A stretch of 64,000 nt of DNA, taken from positions 124,001-188,000 of the forward strand of contig NZ_STGI01000002.1 of the NCBI RefSeq assembly GCF_004804275.1, in the 5' to 3' direction. The stretch is from Herbaspirillum sp. ST 5-3. GTDB lineage: Bacteria; Pseudomonadota; Gammaproteobacteria; Burkholderiales; Burkholderiaceae_D. Both the position numbers and the translations under genes were made by a program. Below the pieces are notes generated by a model. It did no database searches, was not told where the DNA came from, and saw nothing but the letters and a program-made list of their open reading frames with translations. Shown here piece by piece: positions 1,548-6,368 of this stretch. Each line of letters begins with the position of its first letter. The first letter of the stretch is position 1.

Positions 1548-2288
1548 TTATCTGGCGGTCGCGGTCTCCAGTCTGTTGCGCGCTGCCGAGCTTCGCAGCG
1601 TGTCGATGATAATGCGGCGCAGTTGCCGCCAGTGTTCGCCGGGCTGGCGTACATGCTTCTGATTGATTTCCAGCTCGATGCCGAGATAGCTCGCTTCCTC
1701 GAAGCGCCGCCGCAGGTAAACCGTGAAACCGTCGGCCGTACCGGTGTAGGGGTAGTTCAGCCGCGTCTTGAGTGCATGGGCCGCGCTTCGCAGCGCGTTT
1801 TTCCAGCGCTGGCACAGCTCCGCTTCGGCTCGCCGCGCCGGGTCGTACAGCAGCCCGAGGTCGGCGTTGCGTACCTCGCCGTTGAGTTCCGGCGTGAAGC
1901 TGTGACAGGAGATGTGAATCACGCGTGCGCCGCCGGCGACCGCTTGCGCGATCTGCGTCTCGGCCTTGGTGCGGTAGGGGCGGTAATAGCGCTGGAAGAT
2001 TTCTTCGCGGATGTCGGCCGGGGCAGGGCGCGTCGCTTCGGAAAACAGCTTGGGGTGGCTGGGCGAGCGGTTGAGATCGATCAGCAGGCGGCTGATGGTT
2101 GACACCAGCAGAGGCGCCGACAAGGCCTGCGACAATTCGCGCGCCACGCGCAGCGCGCCGACGTCATAACCGCGATGCGTGCGCAGCAATTCCTCGCGAC
2201 CGCGAAAGAAATCTCGATAGCGCGACGGAATGCGATTGCCGCCATGCTCGCACGTGACGAAGAAGAAGTCCGGCGTGGTGGATGTCAT
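1548..2288 (-). CDS. N-formylglutamate amidohydrolase family protein
   Basis: A 246-residue protein of the N-formylglutamate amidohydrolase (HutG-type, FGase) family, metal-dependent hydrolases that cleave an amide bond on a glutamate derivative. Visible family motifs are CEHGGNRIP near residue 14, the Arg-rich LLIDLNRSPSHP segment, and HISCHSFTPELNG in the middle, which carry the expected metal and substrate residues. The start at 2288 gives the normal family N-terminus (MTSTTPDFFFVTCEHGG); an in-frame extension upstream has no family character. No histidine-utilisation genes are near. It lies 163 bases downstream of a GCS2-type ligase in the same direction, so a role in processing an amide-linked product of that cluster is more likely than histidine breakdown (inference). 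Confidence 0.85.
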   Translation of the reverse strand: MTSTTPDFFFVTCEHGGNRIPSRYRDFFRGREELLRTHRGYDVGALRVARELSQALSAPLLVSTISRLLIDLNRSPSHPKLFSEATRPAPADIREEIFQRYYRPYRTKAETQIAQAVAGGARVIHISCHSFTPELNGEVRNADLGLLYDPARRAEAELCQRWKNALRSAAHALKTRLNYPYTGTADGFTVYLRRRFEEASYLGIELEINQKHVRQPGEHWRQLRRIIIDTLRSSAARNRLETATAR

Positions 2289-2451
2289 CGCGGGTTCGAG
2301 TTGATCGGTCCGGTCTGGTACAGTCTCTGGCAAGCAAGACGATATGTCGTCCACGGGAGATACGGAAGGCGCGGAAAAAATCGGGCACAGGCTCTTTCCG
2401 TGTCTTCCGTGGGCCGGGTAATGGAATGATGCAAGCACCCTGCGTATTGCA

Positions 2452-3732
2452 TCAGCCCCCCTCGACAAACATTCTCCCCTCCTGCAGGCAATCGCACAGG
2501 CGAGCGTACACGGCCTGCAAGTGTTTCCGCGAAAAATCGCCACCCACTGCGCGCAGTATCCGACGTGCCAGCGGGCCGTGCTCGATCATGACCTGCAAGG
2601 GCTCTTGCCACCGGCCCGACTGCCCGGTATCGTCCTCCATCATGCGGCCGACCAGGAAGCGCCACAGATCGTTCGCGCTGGCGTTGCGCTCGGGGAAGTC
2701 GAGCAGCCGCAGGTAGGCATCATTGCGGATGATCGTGGCATCGGCATCGCGGATGCAGTCATGCAGAATCGCCGCCAGCGCCGCGGTCGGCATTTCCTGC
2801 TGCGCCACCAGTACGTCGTCGCCGGCCTGATACAGGCGTCGTACCGCATCGGTGCTTGCCGCCGCGACCGCGAGATCGGCCTGCGGGCACTCTTGCGTAT
2901 CGACAACACGGATTTCGATCGCGTTGCGTTCGAAGCGCGCAATTGCGCCGCGCGAGTTCAGCCATTCTTCCTGCAAGACGTGTTCCGGATCGAGCGCCGC
3001 GATATCGCGGTACATCGGCGCCAGAATGCGCTGCTCGTATCCCGCGCGGTGGGTGACGGTTTCCGGCACCACCATCCCCGTGATCGAGGGAATGGTTCGC
3101 GCATTGTCGGCATACACATGCATGCGGTAATCGCACCAGCCGGTACGGCGCCCTTCGGCAATCGGCGAGCTGGCCGCCAGCGCTGGCAGAATGGGCAGTA
3201 CCAGGCGAATGGCGGCGTGCAGGCGCGCGAACTCGTCGTCGCCGGCGAAAGGCAAGTTGATATGCATGCTCTGCAGATTTGCCCAACCATGACTCTTGCT
3301 GTCGAAAATGCGGTCGTAGGCGCGGTAGATCGCGTCATTGTCATGCGGCCAGATATGCGTCTCGGTGAGCGGGTCCATCCATGGGTGCATCGCGCCGGGC
3401 ATCAATTGCGCGTCCATGGCCGCCAGGCGCGCGTTGATGGCGCGCACCTCGGCTTGAAAGGCATCGGGCAGCGACGATAGCGACGCGGCAGGGCGCCGGT
3501 TCTTGATTTCGATGACATGCATCACCAGCTCATTGGACCAGCCGAGCGCGCCACGCCGCACTTCATTCACGACCCTGCCTTCGCCCTCCGACCCTTCGCG
3601 TAACAAGCGGTCGGCAATCGGCCGCACATCCAGGCCGTCACGCTGCACGATCATGTATTCCAGTTCAATGCCGACTCCGGTGAAGGCATGCAGCAGGGGC
3701 GGATCCGCTTCCTGTATCGTTTCCTGCATCAT
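2452..3732 (-). CDS. Carboxylate-amine ligase, GCS2 / YbdK-like family
   Basis: A 426-residue member of the glutamate-cysteine ligase family 2 fold (GCS2), enzymes that join a carboxylate to an amine using ATP. The N-terminal signature is seen as GVGIELEYMIVQRDG, and the core has the NLQSMHINLPFAGDDEFARLHAAIR stretch in several blocks (QSMHINLPF, ARLHAAIRLVLP) typical of COG2170-like proteins. The family usually runs 370-430 residues, so this one is complete. Its ATG overlaps the stop codon of the upstream RimK-like ligase (ATGA junction), which indicates translational coupling. Substrates cannot be read from sequence: the family includes weak glutamate-cysteine ligases and many amidoligases of unknown product. 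True gamma-glutamylcysteine synthesis for glutathione is possible but less likely given the partners. Confidence 0.85.
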   Translation of the reverse strand: MMQETIQEADPPLLHAFTGVGIELEYMIVQRDGLDVRPIADRLLREGSEGEGRVVNEVRRGALGWSNELVMHVIEIKNRRPAASLSSLPDAFQAEVRAINARLAAMDAQLMPGAMHPWMDPLTETHIWPHDNDAIYRAYDRIFDSKSHGWANLQSMHINLPFAGDDEFARLHAAIRLVLPILPALAASSPIAEGRRTGWCDYRMHVYADNARTIPSITGMVVPETVTHRAGYEQRILAPMYRDIAALDPEHVLQEEWLNSRGAIARFERNAIEIRVVDTQECPQADLAVAAASTDAVRRLYQAGDDVLVAQQEMPTAALAAILHDCIRDADATIIRNDAYLRLLDFPERNASANDLWRFLVGRMMEDDTGQSGRWQEPLQVMIEHGPLARRILRAVGGDFSRKHLQAVYARLCDCLQEGRMFVEGG

Positions 3733-5198
3733 GGCGCAACACTCCCTTTGCGTTCCTCGATGCGTTTTCGGAAAACGCCCATGACTTCGCGGTACAGCGC
3801 ATCGGACAGCACCGCATCCTCATTGCCGGCATCGACATTCGGGTTGTCGTTGATTTCGATAACGTAGTTCTGGACGCCGACCTGCTTCAGGTCCACGCCG
3901 TAGAAGCCATCGCCCATCAGGTTGGCAGCCTGCACCGCGATCTTCACCACATCGTCCGGCACTTCGCCGACCGACAACGCCTCGGTCTTGCCTTCGCTCA
4001 TGCGCTGGTGTTCATGCTTGATGATCTGCCAGTGACCGGGCGCCATGTAATATTTGCAGACGAAGAGCGGGCGCTGGTCGAGCACGCCGATGCGCCAGTC
4101 GAAGTCAGTCGGCAGGTATTCCTGCGCCAGCACCAGTTCCGACTCTTTCAGCAATTCATTCACCTTCACCAGCAATTCCTGCTCCGACTCGATTTTCAAA
4201 ACGCCGGATGAAAACGCGCCATCGGGTTGCTTCAGGATGCAGGGCAACCCGAGCGTGGACACGATCTGGTCGACATTGCCCTTGTGTACCACCAGCGTTT
4301 TCGGCGTGGGGATGTGATGCCGGGTCAGCAATTCGTTCAGGTAAATCTTGTTGGTGCAACGCAGGATCGATTCGGGATCGTCGATGACCACCATGCCGGC
4401 GTCGGCCGCCTGGCGCGACAGCTGGTAAGTGTAGTGGTCGACGTTGGTGGTGTCGCGGATGAAGAGCGCGTCGAAGTCGGTTACGCGGCGCGCGTCCTTC
4501 GGCGTGATCAGCTCCGCGTGCATGCCGAGCAATTCGGCCGCTTCCAGGAATTTGCGCAGCGCTTCCGGGTTCGACGGCAGCTCCTTGCGCTGCGGATCGT
4601 ACAGGATCGCCAGCGAGGCCTGCTTGCTGGGCGACGCATTGCTGCGGATCTTTTGTTCCTTGAGGTAATCGATCGCCGCCTGCATCGCGCATGGCTGATG
4701 GTGCAATGGAATATCGCGCACGCTGCCCGGGTAAATGCTGCACAGGTGCCAGTGCTCGTTGGCGCGTTCGAAGCGTGCATGCAAGACGGGCGTGCGCAGC
4801 AGCTTGAACAACTGTTCGCTCAGATGCTGATGGTGCTGGTCGGCATCGCGTCCGAAATAGATGTTCAGGTCAGCGAAGTCATCCGACACGCGCGAAAACG
4901 AGCAGTCAATCAGGTCATCGAGCTTTTCCGTGATGTCCTGTACCAGGCTGTCCGATTGCAGATCCTTCATCGCCTGCGCATCCGGCAGCGGCTGATGACC
5001 GCGCGCTTCGGCAAGGAGAGATACGTAATAGCCCTGGCTTTGGTAGCGATAGGTGTTGCAGAGGTTGAAGACTTTGGTGGTGGTGCTGGTATCCCCGTAG
5101 GCGGGGTCCATCAAGTAGGTTTGTGCAGGTATCACTGTGACACCGGGTATGTCGAAAGGCCAATCTTGCTGTTGACTTACGACGAAGAGGATGTTCAT
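3729..5198 (-). CDS. RimK-like ATP-grasp ligase with N-terminal RLAN-type domain
   Basis: A 489-residue protein. The first ~200 residues (MNILFVVSQQQDWPF onward) match the N-terminal extension found in long RimK-family proteins. The last ~290 form an ATP-grasp ligase: ITPKDARRVTDFDALFIRDTT, the nucleotide-binding stretch LPCILKQPDGAFSSGV, LAQEYLPTDFDWRIGVLD and the metal-binding end YVIEINDNPNVDAGNEDAV. RimK-type enzymes add amino acids, often glutamate, to a carboxyl group on a small molecule or a protein tail. The start at 5198 has an AGGAAG ribosome site and overlaps the stop of the C39-like gene by ATGA. Ligase, peptidase and second ligase are therefore made together. Target unknown. Confidence 0.87.
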   Translation of the reverse strand: MNILFVVSQQQDWPFDIPGVTVIPAQTYLMDPAYGDTSTTTKVFNLCNTYRYQSQGYYVSLLAEARGHQPLPDAQAMKDLQSDSLVQDITEKLDDLIDCSFSRVSDDFADLNIYFGRDADQHHQHLSEQLFKLLRTPVLHARFERANEHWHLCSIYPGSVRDIPLHHQPCAMQAAIDYLKEQKIRSNASPSKQASLAILYDPQRKELPSNPEALRKFLEAAELLGMHAELITPKDARRVTDFDALFIRDTTNVDHYTYQLSRQAADAGMVVIDDPESILRCTNKIYLNELLTRHHIPTPKTLVVHKGNVDQIVSTLGLPCILKQPDGAFSSGVLKIESEQELLVKVNELLKESELVLAQEYLPTDFDWRIGVLDQRPLFVCKYYMAPGHWQIIKHEHQRMSEGKTEALSVGEVPDDVVKIAVQAANLMGDGFYGVDLKQVGVQNYVIEINDNPNVDAGNEDAVLSDALYREVMGVFRKRIEERKGSVAP

Positions 5199-5926
5199 GG
5201 TACTTCCTGTCGCGGCGGACACCGCGGATGGATGATTAACAGATTCGCGTCATGCGTCACAATGCCGAGCAGCACCGCACCGATAACCCGGTCGACACTC
5301 AGCCAGTACTCGTGCGTGCTGGCGTAAGGATTGAGTTGATAGGGATCGACCACCAGCACCTTGCGGTGGATCTTGTCGTAACCAGCCATCACGACAAAGT
5401 GCCCGGAAGGCAGGCCGCGTACGTCGTCGGGCACATCATCCGGCCCGAATTCGCGCGGCGTGCGGTACAGAAAAGTCGAGCTGAGCCCGGTGATGATGGG
5501 CAGGCCGCGGCGCAGGATGCTTCGGATCAAGGTATGCGAGAGATCGAGCAGGCGCAGGCGGCCGCCGAGGCTGAGGAATTCCAGATAGCCGGTGGTGGCA
5601 TGCTGCAGGCGATAGTCCATCTTGATTTCGCGCTGCCGGCGCAGGCGGTCGGCGATGTCCACGCCATGTGCGAACCAGGTCGGATCGAATACCCCGAGGT
5701 TATAAGTGTAAATCGTTGCCTTGTATCCCCTGCGCAAGGCATCGCAAGCGAGAAATACGGCGAAGGTGCCGCCATGCTCCAGCTTGCCGGTGCGTCCGAT
5801 CACATGGTCGAGCGATTCCTGATCGCCCCAGTAGCGGTAGATCGCTTGCAGGCAAGTCGGCCCGCATGTGGTCTCGTCCGGTTGCGGAAGAATCTTGACG
5901 GGCAGCTGCAATATGGCTTGGGTCAC
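5195..5926 (-). CDS. C39-like cysteine peptidase-fold protein
   Basis: A 243-residue protein (GTG start at 5926) with papain-like C39 features: a Gln followed by the nucleophile in QPDETTCGPTCL (Cys about residue 21), a His in SGHFVVMAGYD and an Asp in VLVVDPYQLNP, the order of the C39 Cys-His-Asp triad. There is no transmembrane or ABC domain, so it is not a bacteriocin exporter. It heads the cluster and overlaps the RimK-like ligase by four bases. It may cleave a peptide or reverse the bond made by the ligases. The start is uncertain: upstream codons lead into the inverted-repeat element, and the chosen GTG has only a weak ribosome site. No signal peptide is seen, so a cytoplasmic place is likely. 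Confidence 0.75.
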   Translation of the reverse strand: MTQAILQLPVKILPQPDETTCGPTCLQAIYRYWGDQESLDHVIGRTGKLEHGGTFAVFLACDALRRGYKATIYTYNLGVFDPTWFAHGVDIADRLRRQREIKMDYRLQHATTGYLEFLSLGGRLRLLDLSHTLIRSILRRGLPIITGLSSTFLYRTPREFGPDDVPDDVRGLPSGHFVVMAGYDKIHRKVLVVDPYQLNPYASTHEYWLSVDRVIGAVLLGIVTHDANLLIIHPRCPPRQEVP

Positions 5927-6368
5927 GGCGGAGCGTATTCGTGAAATCGCTTGGTTGTATATGCCTGTTTTGCGGCACGGAGCCTGACAGGCTGTTGAAA
6001 AACTACTGCGCGGGCCGATCCTGGGGCCTGCAAACTGTACGCGTACGCTCCTCGACCCCAATCTCGCCCCGCTCGCTACGTTTTTCAACAGCCTGTTAAA
6101 GCATTTTCGGTGCCAGATTGTCGAGTGTGCCGGACAAACATGCATTTCAGCAGGAAACCGTTTTTATGACTCGCATCGCCTTGTAAAAGTTTCCACTGCG
6201 TGCATCTCTTTCCCTGCGTCGCATTCCCTGTGTGCAGCTTGTACAAGTGCTCGAAACGGACGGGCATGGATGATGCATGGGAAGCAAAGGACACTTGGGT
6301 TCAATGCCCACGCTTGCCCGTCGCAAACAGGGACAGGCGCGTGGTGCCCGCTTCAGGAGCTTATCGAC
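5927..6368. other. Intergenic region holding a MITE-like inverted repeat
   Basis: About 440 bases between the leftward C39-like gene and a rightward secreted protein gene. It contains the inverted-repeat element listed separately and must hold both divergent promoters. No other coding sequence is convincing. Confidence 0.55.
5987..6096. repeat. MITE-like element with 17-bp terminal inverted repeats
   Basis: The 17-base arm ACAGGCTGTTGAAAAAC at 5987-6003 is repeated perfectly in reverse complement at 6080-6096. The ~75 bases between contain a GTACGCGTAC palindrome and no open frame for a transposase. The size (about 110 bases) and perfect ends fit a non-autonomous miniature transposable element or a large REP-like palindrome. 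No clear target-site duplication is seen outside the arms. Confidence 0.6.

Follow-up and report, generated by a model that had tools for sequence, protein, structure and literature searches.

RLAN-ATP-grasp ligases with GNAT and papain-like partners (PF14401, PF11814) were reportedly predicted as a family by Iyer et al. in 2009. A ligase of this family is encoded in a 64,000-nucleotide stretch of Herbaspirillum sp. ST 5-3 (contig NZ_STGI01000002.1, positions 124,001 to 188,000; hereafter the window), where its gene lies in a four-gene cassette with those of a C39-like cysteine peptidase, a GCS2-family carboxylate-amine ligase and an N-formylglutamate-amidohydrolase-fold enzyme. An earlier reading of the window (the original prediction) had called this system undescribed. 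That word is too strong at the family level, as the RLAN-ATP-grasp family and its GNAT and papain-like partners are said to have been described before. The NAGGN osmolyte pathway consists of a GNAT-ATP-grasp and a peptidase, and the cassette resembles it, compared by logic alone, in joining a capping enzyme, an ATP-grasp enzyme and a peptidase. According to a passage of PMC10318531 that cites Iyer et al. 2009, DUF3335 frequently occurs in fusion with GNAT-family domains, which have a possible role as peptide ligases. The literature search found no description of the four-gene combination, and an earlier mention of the exact order in Iyer et al. 2009 is possible.

The cassette shares the ligase family PF14401 with the RLAN-GNAT-DUF3335 systems, and its C39 protein is a distant relative of DUF3335 (hhalign probability 96.6, E 5.1e-10). 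It differs from them in having a separate ligase clade, no such GNAT, and an added GCS2 protein and amidohydrolase. The RimK-RimB and RloC-RloA pairs, as presented in an excerpt of PMC12239564, likewise combine a RimK-type ATP-grasp ligase with a peptidase. Their protease is retropepsin-like, whereas that of the cassette is papain-like, and the operons described in the excerpt lack GCS2. The cassette ligase also falls below the cut-off for RimK alpha-L-glutamate ligase (TIGR00768, 79.3 against 143.4 bits; PRK10446, 35.4 against 331 bits). The cassette and its overlaps, in window coordinates and in amino acids (aa), are as follows.

5195..5926, minus strand: C39-like (papain-fold) cysteine peptidase, 243 aa (P0001; PF13529/PF03412), GTG start assumed
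5195..5198, minus strand: ATGA stop/start overlap from the C39 gene to the ligase gene, read from the sequence
3729..5198, minus strand: RLAN domain and RimK-like ATP-grasp ligase, 489 aa (P0002; PF14401/PF08443)
3729..3732, minus strand: ATGA stop/start overlap from the ligase gene to the GCS2 gene, read from the sequence
2452..3732, minus strand: GCS2-family carboxylate-amine ligase, 426 aa (P0003; PF04107)
1548..2288, minus strand: N-formylglutamate-amidohydrolase-fold enzyme, 246 aa (P0004; PF05013), start assumed, not HutG

The gap between the GCS2 and amidohydrolase genes is 163 bp if the latter starts at the ATG at 2288 and 118 bp if it starts at 2333, as codon scoring suggests. The original prediction had read four open reading frames (ORFs) here, with two ATGA overlaps and then the amidohydrolase; all are present, and Pfam agrees. 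Inspection by eye only, with no predictor, found no obvious signal peptide in any of the four proteins.

The four genes behave as one unit, and their recurrence beyond chance is supported by the genome comparisons. In the class sample, C39 homologues are present in 15 of 274 genomes, 13 of them strong (own genome included) and two weak (G818 and G651). The ligase is adjacent in all 12 other genomes with a strong match, and all four genes are at one locus in 10 of these. The exceptions are a locus cut by a contig end (L133) and one in genome G696 (L136) that contains the C39 and ligase genes only, followed by a sensor kinase gene. In G696 the unit is split: C39 and ligase are on contig C18, and GCS2 and amidohydrolase are close together on contig C17 (20238-22288), approximately 20 kb from the contig start. 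The weak-match genome G818 (locus L139) has none of the four genes. In the order sample, 13 of 349 genomes (own genome included) have a C39 match. Among the 12 others, the ligase is adjacent in 11, GCS2 in 10 and all four genes in nine. The three exceptions are G953, where a contig end interrupts the locus and the ligase piece lies in two frames, and G995 and G897, both described below.

By family labels, 15 families of the class, the own family included, have a locus with all four genes. A contig from a metagenome-assembled genome (MAG) labelled Planctomycetota (L046; label unverified) contains C39, ligase and GCS2 before it ends. Within the own family, the RLAN domain is found in 34 of 195 genomes (35 loci). 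Genomes G532 and G542 of this sample and G651 of the class sample are left out of the locus analysis. C39, ligase and GCS2 are together in 27 of 33 own-family loci (32 and the window), and 24 of the 27 also have the amidohydrolase; the other six loci comprise five of the GNAT type and one (L117) of neither type. The three cassette loci without the amidohydrolase are L123 (G545), L112 (G416) and L111, which is cut by a contig end. In L118 and L043 (Noviherbaspirillum aridicola), the amidohydrolase gene is displaced, 2.2-2.4 kb beyond GCS2. The association of peptidase and ligase is the strictest, with a ligase in 55 of 55 C39 loci.

The original prediction had treated the four genes as one unit and proposed a gene-neighbourhood search, in which an order confined to the genus would have spoken against it. 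That search was run, and the order is kept far beyond the genus. The claim of a single unit is borne out by the recurrence in the class and order samples and by G696, which keeps both halves after the split. Inter-protein distances agree among the four proteins (Spearman 0.77 to 0.92, 47 loci including near-duplicates), which fits co-inheritance, yet shared species ancestry gives the same result and the agreement is not used as evidence. The C39 protein has no match at 1e-5 in 72,556 plasmid records. A remnant matching 32 C39 residues is found in G897 (L155, 3241-3360) with no other cassette gene, while G858 and G974 of the same genus keep all four; this is probably a cassette loss. The cassette ligases of L112, L113 and L114 are approximately 395-412 aa long, and Pfam RLAN covers only positions 3-67, 3-69 and 3-56 of 150; the N-terminal RLAN domain seems shortened and the cassette kept.

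The ligase tree, a new finding of this analysis, divides in two, the partner being either the cassette or a GNAT, the latter usually fused to a C39-like peptidase (DUF3335). The tree was built under LG+G4 with Shimodaira-Hasegawa-like approximate likelihood-ratio (SH-aLRT) support only and a midpoint root for drawing. The 108 ligase loci were reduced to 106 by dropping matches shorter than 300 aa (L133, contig-cut; L105, split frame) and to 89 ligases by removing those at least 90% identical. Tree, GNAT counts and the neighbour clustering below cover loci up to L139 (not L143-L155). A branch with SH-aLRT 100 places all 38 cassette ligases and L117 on one side and the 50 others opposite. The nearest named ligases are from Noviherbaspirillum; closer still is L032, from a MAG labelled 'Proteobacteria bacterium' (90%). 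The L117 ligase (4046-5518, G452) is a second, divergent RLAN ligase (end branch 0.78) inside the cassette clade; it adjoins an M17 aminopeptidase gene and has no C39, GCS2 or GNAT nearby.

Among the 53 non-C39 loci, 33 have a GNAT-DUF3335 fusion, 16 a GNAT alone, one both as separate genes, one DUF3335 only (contig-cut) and two neither. A GNAT neighbour is thus present in 50 of 53, and the DUF3335 peptidase in 34 of those 50; since the 33 fused proteins served to build the GNAT and DUF3335 profiles, they match by construction. Beside the cassette, no GNAT or DUF3335 is matched at E 1e-8 in any of the 55 C39 loci, and the cassette falls outside the RLAN plus GNAT/DUF3335 type. A looser profile picks out a GNAT-like gene close to the cassette in two loci, L109 and L110 (about 1e-22). 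Genome-wide, GCS2 matches in GNAT-type genomes are weak in two of 10 (3.8e-6 and 2.3e-5) and absent in eight, and the amidohydrolase has a weak match in one of six (G062, 5.7e-13, 32% identity) and none in the other five. RLAN is found in 72 of 398 genomes of a phylum sample, own genome included. The 40 loci examined, from 39 of the 72 genomes, lack a C39, GCS2 or amidohydrolase of the cassette kind within approximately 8 kb. In L105 (4220-5693, G446), the RLAN ligase is split into three frames, while the adjacent GNAT-DUF3335 gene is intact; the split probably marks a pseudogene or an assembly error.

Since GNAT accompanies 50 of the 53 non-C39 ligases and has no match at E 1e-8 in the 55 C39 loci, where GCS2 is the usual partner, an amine-acylating enzyme appears to accompany nearly every ligase. 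The acyltransferase of one clade would correspond to the ATP-dependent amine ligase (GCS2) of the other. The near-constant elements across the clades are, by predicted family, the RLAN ligase and an amine-acylating enzyme (GNAT or GCS2), mostly with a papain-fold peptidase.

The domain scores agree with these family assignments. The C39 protein matches PF13529 (3.6e-10) and PF03412 (1.3e-4). The ligase matches RLAN (PF14401, 4.8e-42, 143.6 bits against a gathering score of 25) and RimK (PF08443, 2.3e-10, 40.9 bits against 21), and with RLAN over its gathering score and followed by an ATP-grasp domain it is assigned by sequence to the RLAN/RimK-like ATP-grasp family. The GCS2 protein matches PF04107 (1.7e-27, 97 bits against 21), which places it in the GCS2 superfamily, and the amidohydrolase matches FGase (PF05013, 4.7e-29, 102.5 bits). 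The GCS2 alignment profile has no match among solved structures, and the single GCS2 sequence has weak matches to plant GCS (from 7e-4, residues 155-235). Q15, C21, H176 and D194 of the C39 peptidase do not vary among the 55 aligned homologues and are presumably catalytic, given what is generally known of papain-fold enzymes. The ligase alignment, with 106 rows covering both clades, shows no variation at K284, K323, D436, E448 and N450, and the 47-row amidohydrolase alignment none at E14, H15, H38 and R74 (H129 is identical in 46 of 47). The rows of these alignments contain near-duplicate loci drawn from two collections. By conservation of the putative catalytic residues, all three examined enzymes (C39, ligase and amidohydrolase) look intact.

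GCS2, ATP-grasp and FGase domains occur in glutathione, ergothioneine and histidine-breakdown pathways, and the cassette could in principle be housekeeping genes of these pathways grouped by chance. The proposed order of gamma-glutamyl ligase, ATP-grasp ligase and papain-fold gamma-glutamyl enzyme is also like that of glutathione synthesis with phytochelatin synthase. No cassette gene, however, reaches a glutathione-pathway cut-off, and the cell has its own gshA (PF08886, 685.6 bits) and gshB (TIGR01380, 426.2 bits), side by side on a separate contig (C1); the cassette GCS2 is therefore not needed for ordinary glutathione. The best NCBIfam score of GCS2 is 52.5 bits against a cut-off of 371, and it misses those of EgtA (31.3 against 370.8), gshA_cyano (25.5 against 249.05) and the YbdK carboxylate-amine ligase TIGR02050 (48.6 against 176.4). 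For glutathione synthase the ligase scores 25.7 against 299.05 bits, and the amidohydrolase scores 22.8 against 278.75 bits for the HutG deformylase TIGR02017. Glutathione, ergothioneine and HutG identities are rejected on these scores, which fall far short, and on the separate gshA-gshB pair. With the four genes also recurring as a unit, the housekeeping explanation is hardly credible and is already contradicted at the sequence level. Ordinary glutathione synthesis by GCS2, which the original prediction had named as one outcome that would overturn it, does not agree with the missed GshA, EgtA and YbdK cut-offs or with a gshA-gshB pair elsewhere.

The preferred explanation, which is tentative and given somewhat less than an even chance, is that the cassette carries out cytoplasmic synthesis and turnover of a small capped amide (gamma-glutamyl-X-Y or similar). 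With ATP, GCS2 would couple glutamate or a similar acid, through its carboxylate, to an amine and give gamma-glutamyl-X. The RLAN/RimK-like ATP-grasp enzyme, also using ATP, would then extend the carboxylate by a second amino acid or amine, like GshB and RimK. The C39-like cysteine peptidase may hydrolyse or transfer the new amide, as phytochelatin synthase does on gamma-glutamyl peptides, and the amidohydrolase may free N-acyl- or gamma-glutamyl-type glutamate so that the product is recycled. Across both clades, the scheme would consist of a cap by GNAT (acyl) or GCS2 (gamma-glutamyl), ATP-grasp extension and peptidase cleavage, with amidohydrolase recovery in the cassette clade. We infer all substrates, the step order, the cytoplasmic location and the small-molecule acceptor. 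The products of GCS2 relatives with a known function are small gamma-glutamyl dipeptides and amides. Because of this, and because no acceptor is seen nearby, a small molecule is modestly preferred over a protein tag.

Several observations weigh against this explanation. The fold matches of the C39 model (predicted local distance difference test, pLDDT, 78) are a tie. Phytochelatin synthase as the glutathione acyl-enzyme (2bu3; Z 15.7, root-mean-square deviation (rmsd) 3.1 A, 165 aligned) is not separated at this level from the double-glycine C39 protease 6mpz (Z 15.4, rmsd 2.1 A, 136 aligned) or the pseudomurein endoisopeptidase PeiR (Z 14.4, rmsd 2.4 A, 149 aligned). Residues 194-482 of the ligase model (pLDDT 85.6) match RimK (Z 28.0, rmsd 2.5, 272 aligned), and approximately the same residues match LysX (Z 27.2) and ArgX (Z 27.0); these closest predicted folds act on proteins or carriers. 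The 16 GNAT loci without a peptidase leave the parallel between the clades incomplete. The unit is patchy, with the own genome alone matching in a phylum sample of 299. No amidohydrolase match is found in the genomes of G545 and G416 (the latter 86% complete), and in G995 of the order sample the gene is absent from the 2.6 kb examined beyond GCS2. Its step therefore appears dispensable or replaceable.

The main alternative is a protein tag: the RimK-like ligase would add amino acids to a protein C terminus or side chain, GCS2 would attach to it a residue in gamma linkage or an amine, and both hydrolases would take the tag off again. The predicted ATP-grasp fold, nearest to RimK, LysX and ArgX, the strict association of peptidase and ligase, and the RimK-RimB ligase/protease pairing documented in the excerpt of PMC12239564 all favour it. 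The small gamma-glutamyl dipeptides made by GCS2 relatives do not, and neither the neighbour clusters nor the ORF search of the flanks reveals a conserved acceptor gene beside the unit. A tag is judged somewhat unlikely. The original prediction had proposed synthesis and trimming of either a metabolite or a protein tag. This interpretation is partly supported: the single unit stands, and of the two candidate products the metabolite is tentatively favoured.

C39 peptidases cut double-glycine leaders, which raises graspetide-like tailoring of a ribosomal peptide, with the ATP-grasp enzyme making cross-links and C39 removing the leader. PMC6363468 and PMC8939145 describe such leader cleavage and the building of graspetides by ATP-grasp enzymes, respectively, and PsnB is among the fold matches of the ligase model. 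The 243-aa C39 protein, however, contains only peptidase families over the Pfam cut-off and no ATP-binding cassette (ABC) transporter domain, which sets it apart from bacteriocin exporters. In addition, a search of 12 representative loci, covering 600 bp upstream of C39 and 400 bp downstream of the amidohydrolase gene, reveals no conserved small ORF above chance. Inter-family matches in these flanks (three sense-sense, three antisense-antisense and five mixed) are at chance level, and a co-encoded peptide substrate is rejected on this basis. Graspetide-like tailoring is very improbable.

Neighbour clustering used codon-scored gene calls, and the top 40 clusters contain no fifth gene that recurs in several families. 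Some flanking genes are common within the own family, and single same-family locus pairs share theirs. Two of the 40 clusters extend from the own family to a single other one; the first holds an epimerase-family gene and the second a 190-aa gene (L113 and L133). The epimerase-family cluster, found in L106, L137 and 11 Noviherbaspirillum-group loci, is possibly just a large gene family. No LysW carrier is over the cut-off in the genome (best 16 against 53.2 bits, E 0.07, with a stop inside). Without a conserved flank ORF, a LysW over the cut-off or a fifth gene shared widely, nothing seen qualifies as a dedicated acceptor (protein or peptide), carrier or precursor peptide. In L137 (6342-10305), a GNAT-nitrilase fusion, an amidase and an epimerase lie upstream of the cassette on the same strand, the first two being further amide-type enzymes. 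A perfect 16-bp inverted repeat with arms 78 bp apart lies in the window at 5987-6096, approximately 60 bp upstream of the C39 gene. No other copy of the exact arm is present in the genome.

A more specific form of the small-amide explanation, considered unlikely, is that the cassette supplies the cell with a second gamma-glutamyl peptide, independent of glutathione and serving as a cofactor or osmolyte, and that the sister clade makes its N-acyl-capped counterpart with GNAT replacing GCS2. If true, two chemically different caps would be made on one conserved ligase core. The difference in partner, GNAT or GCS2, leads to a direct chemical prediction, an acyl cap in one clade against a gamma-glutamyl cap in the other. 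The four enzymes form a self-contained unit that recurs and whose putative active sites are invariant, and the cassette may offer a tractable entry to a metabolite or protein modification in many bacteria.

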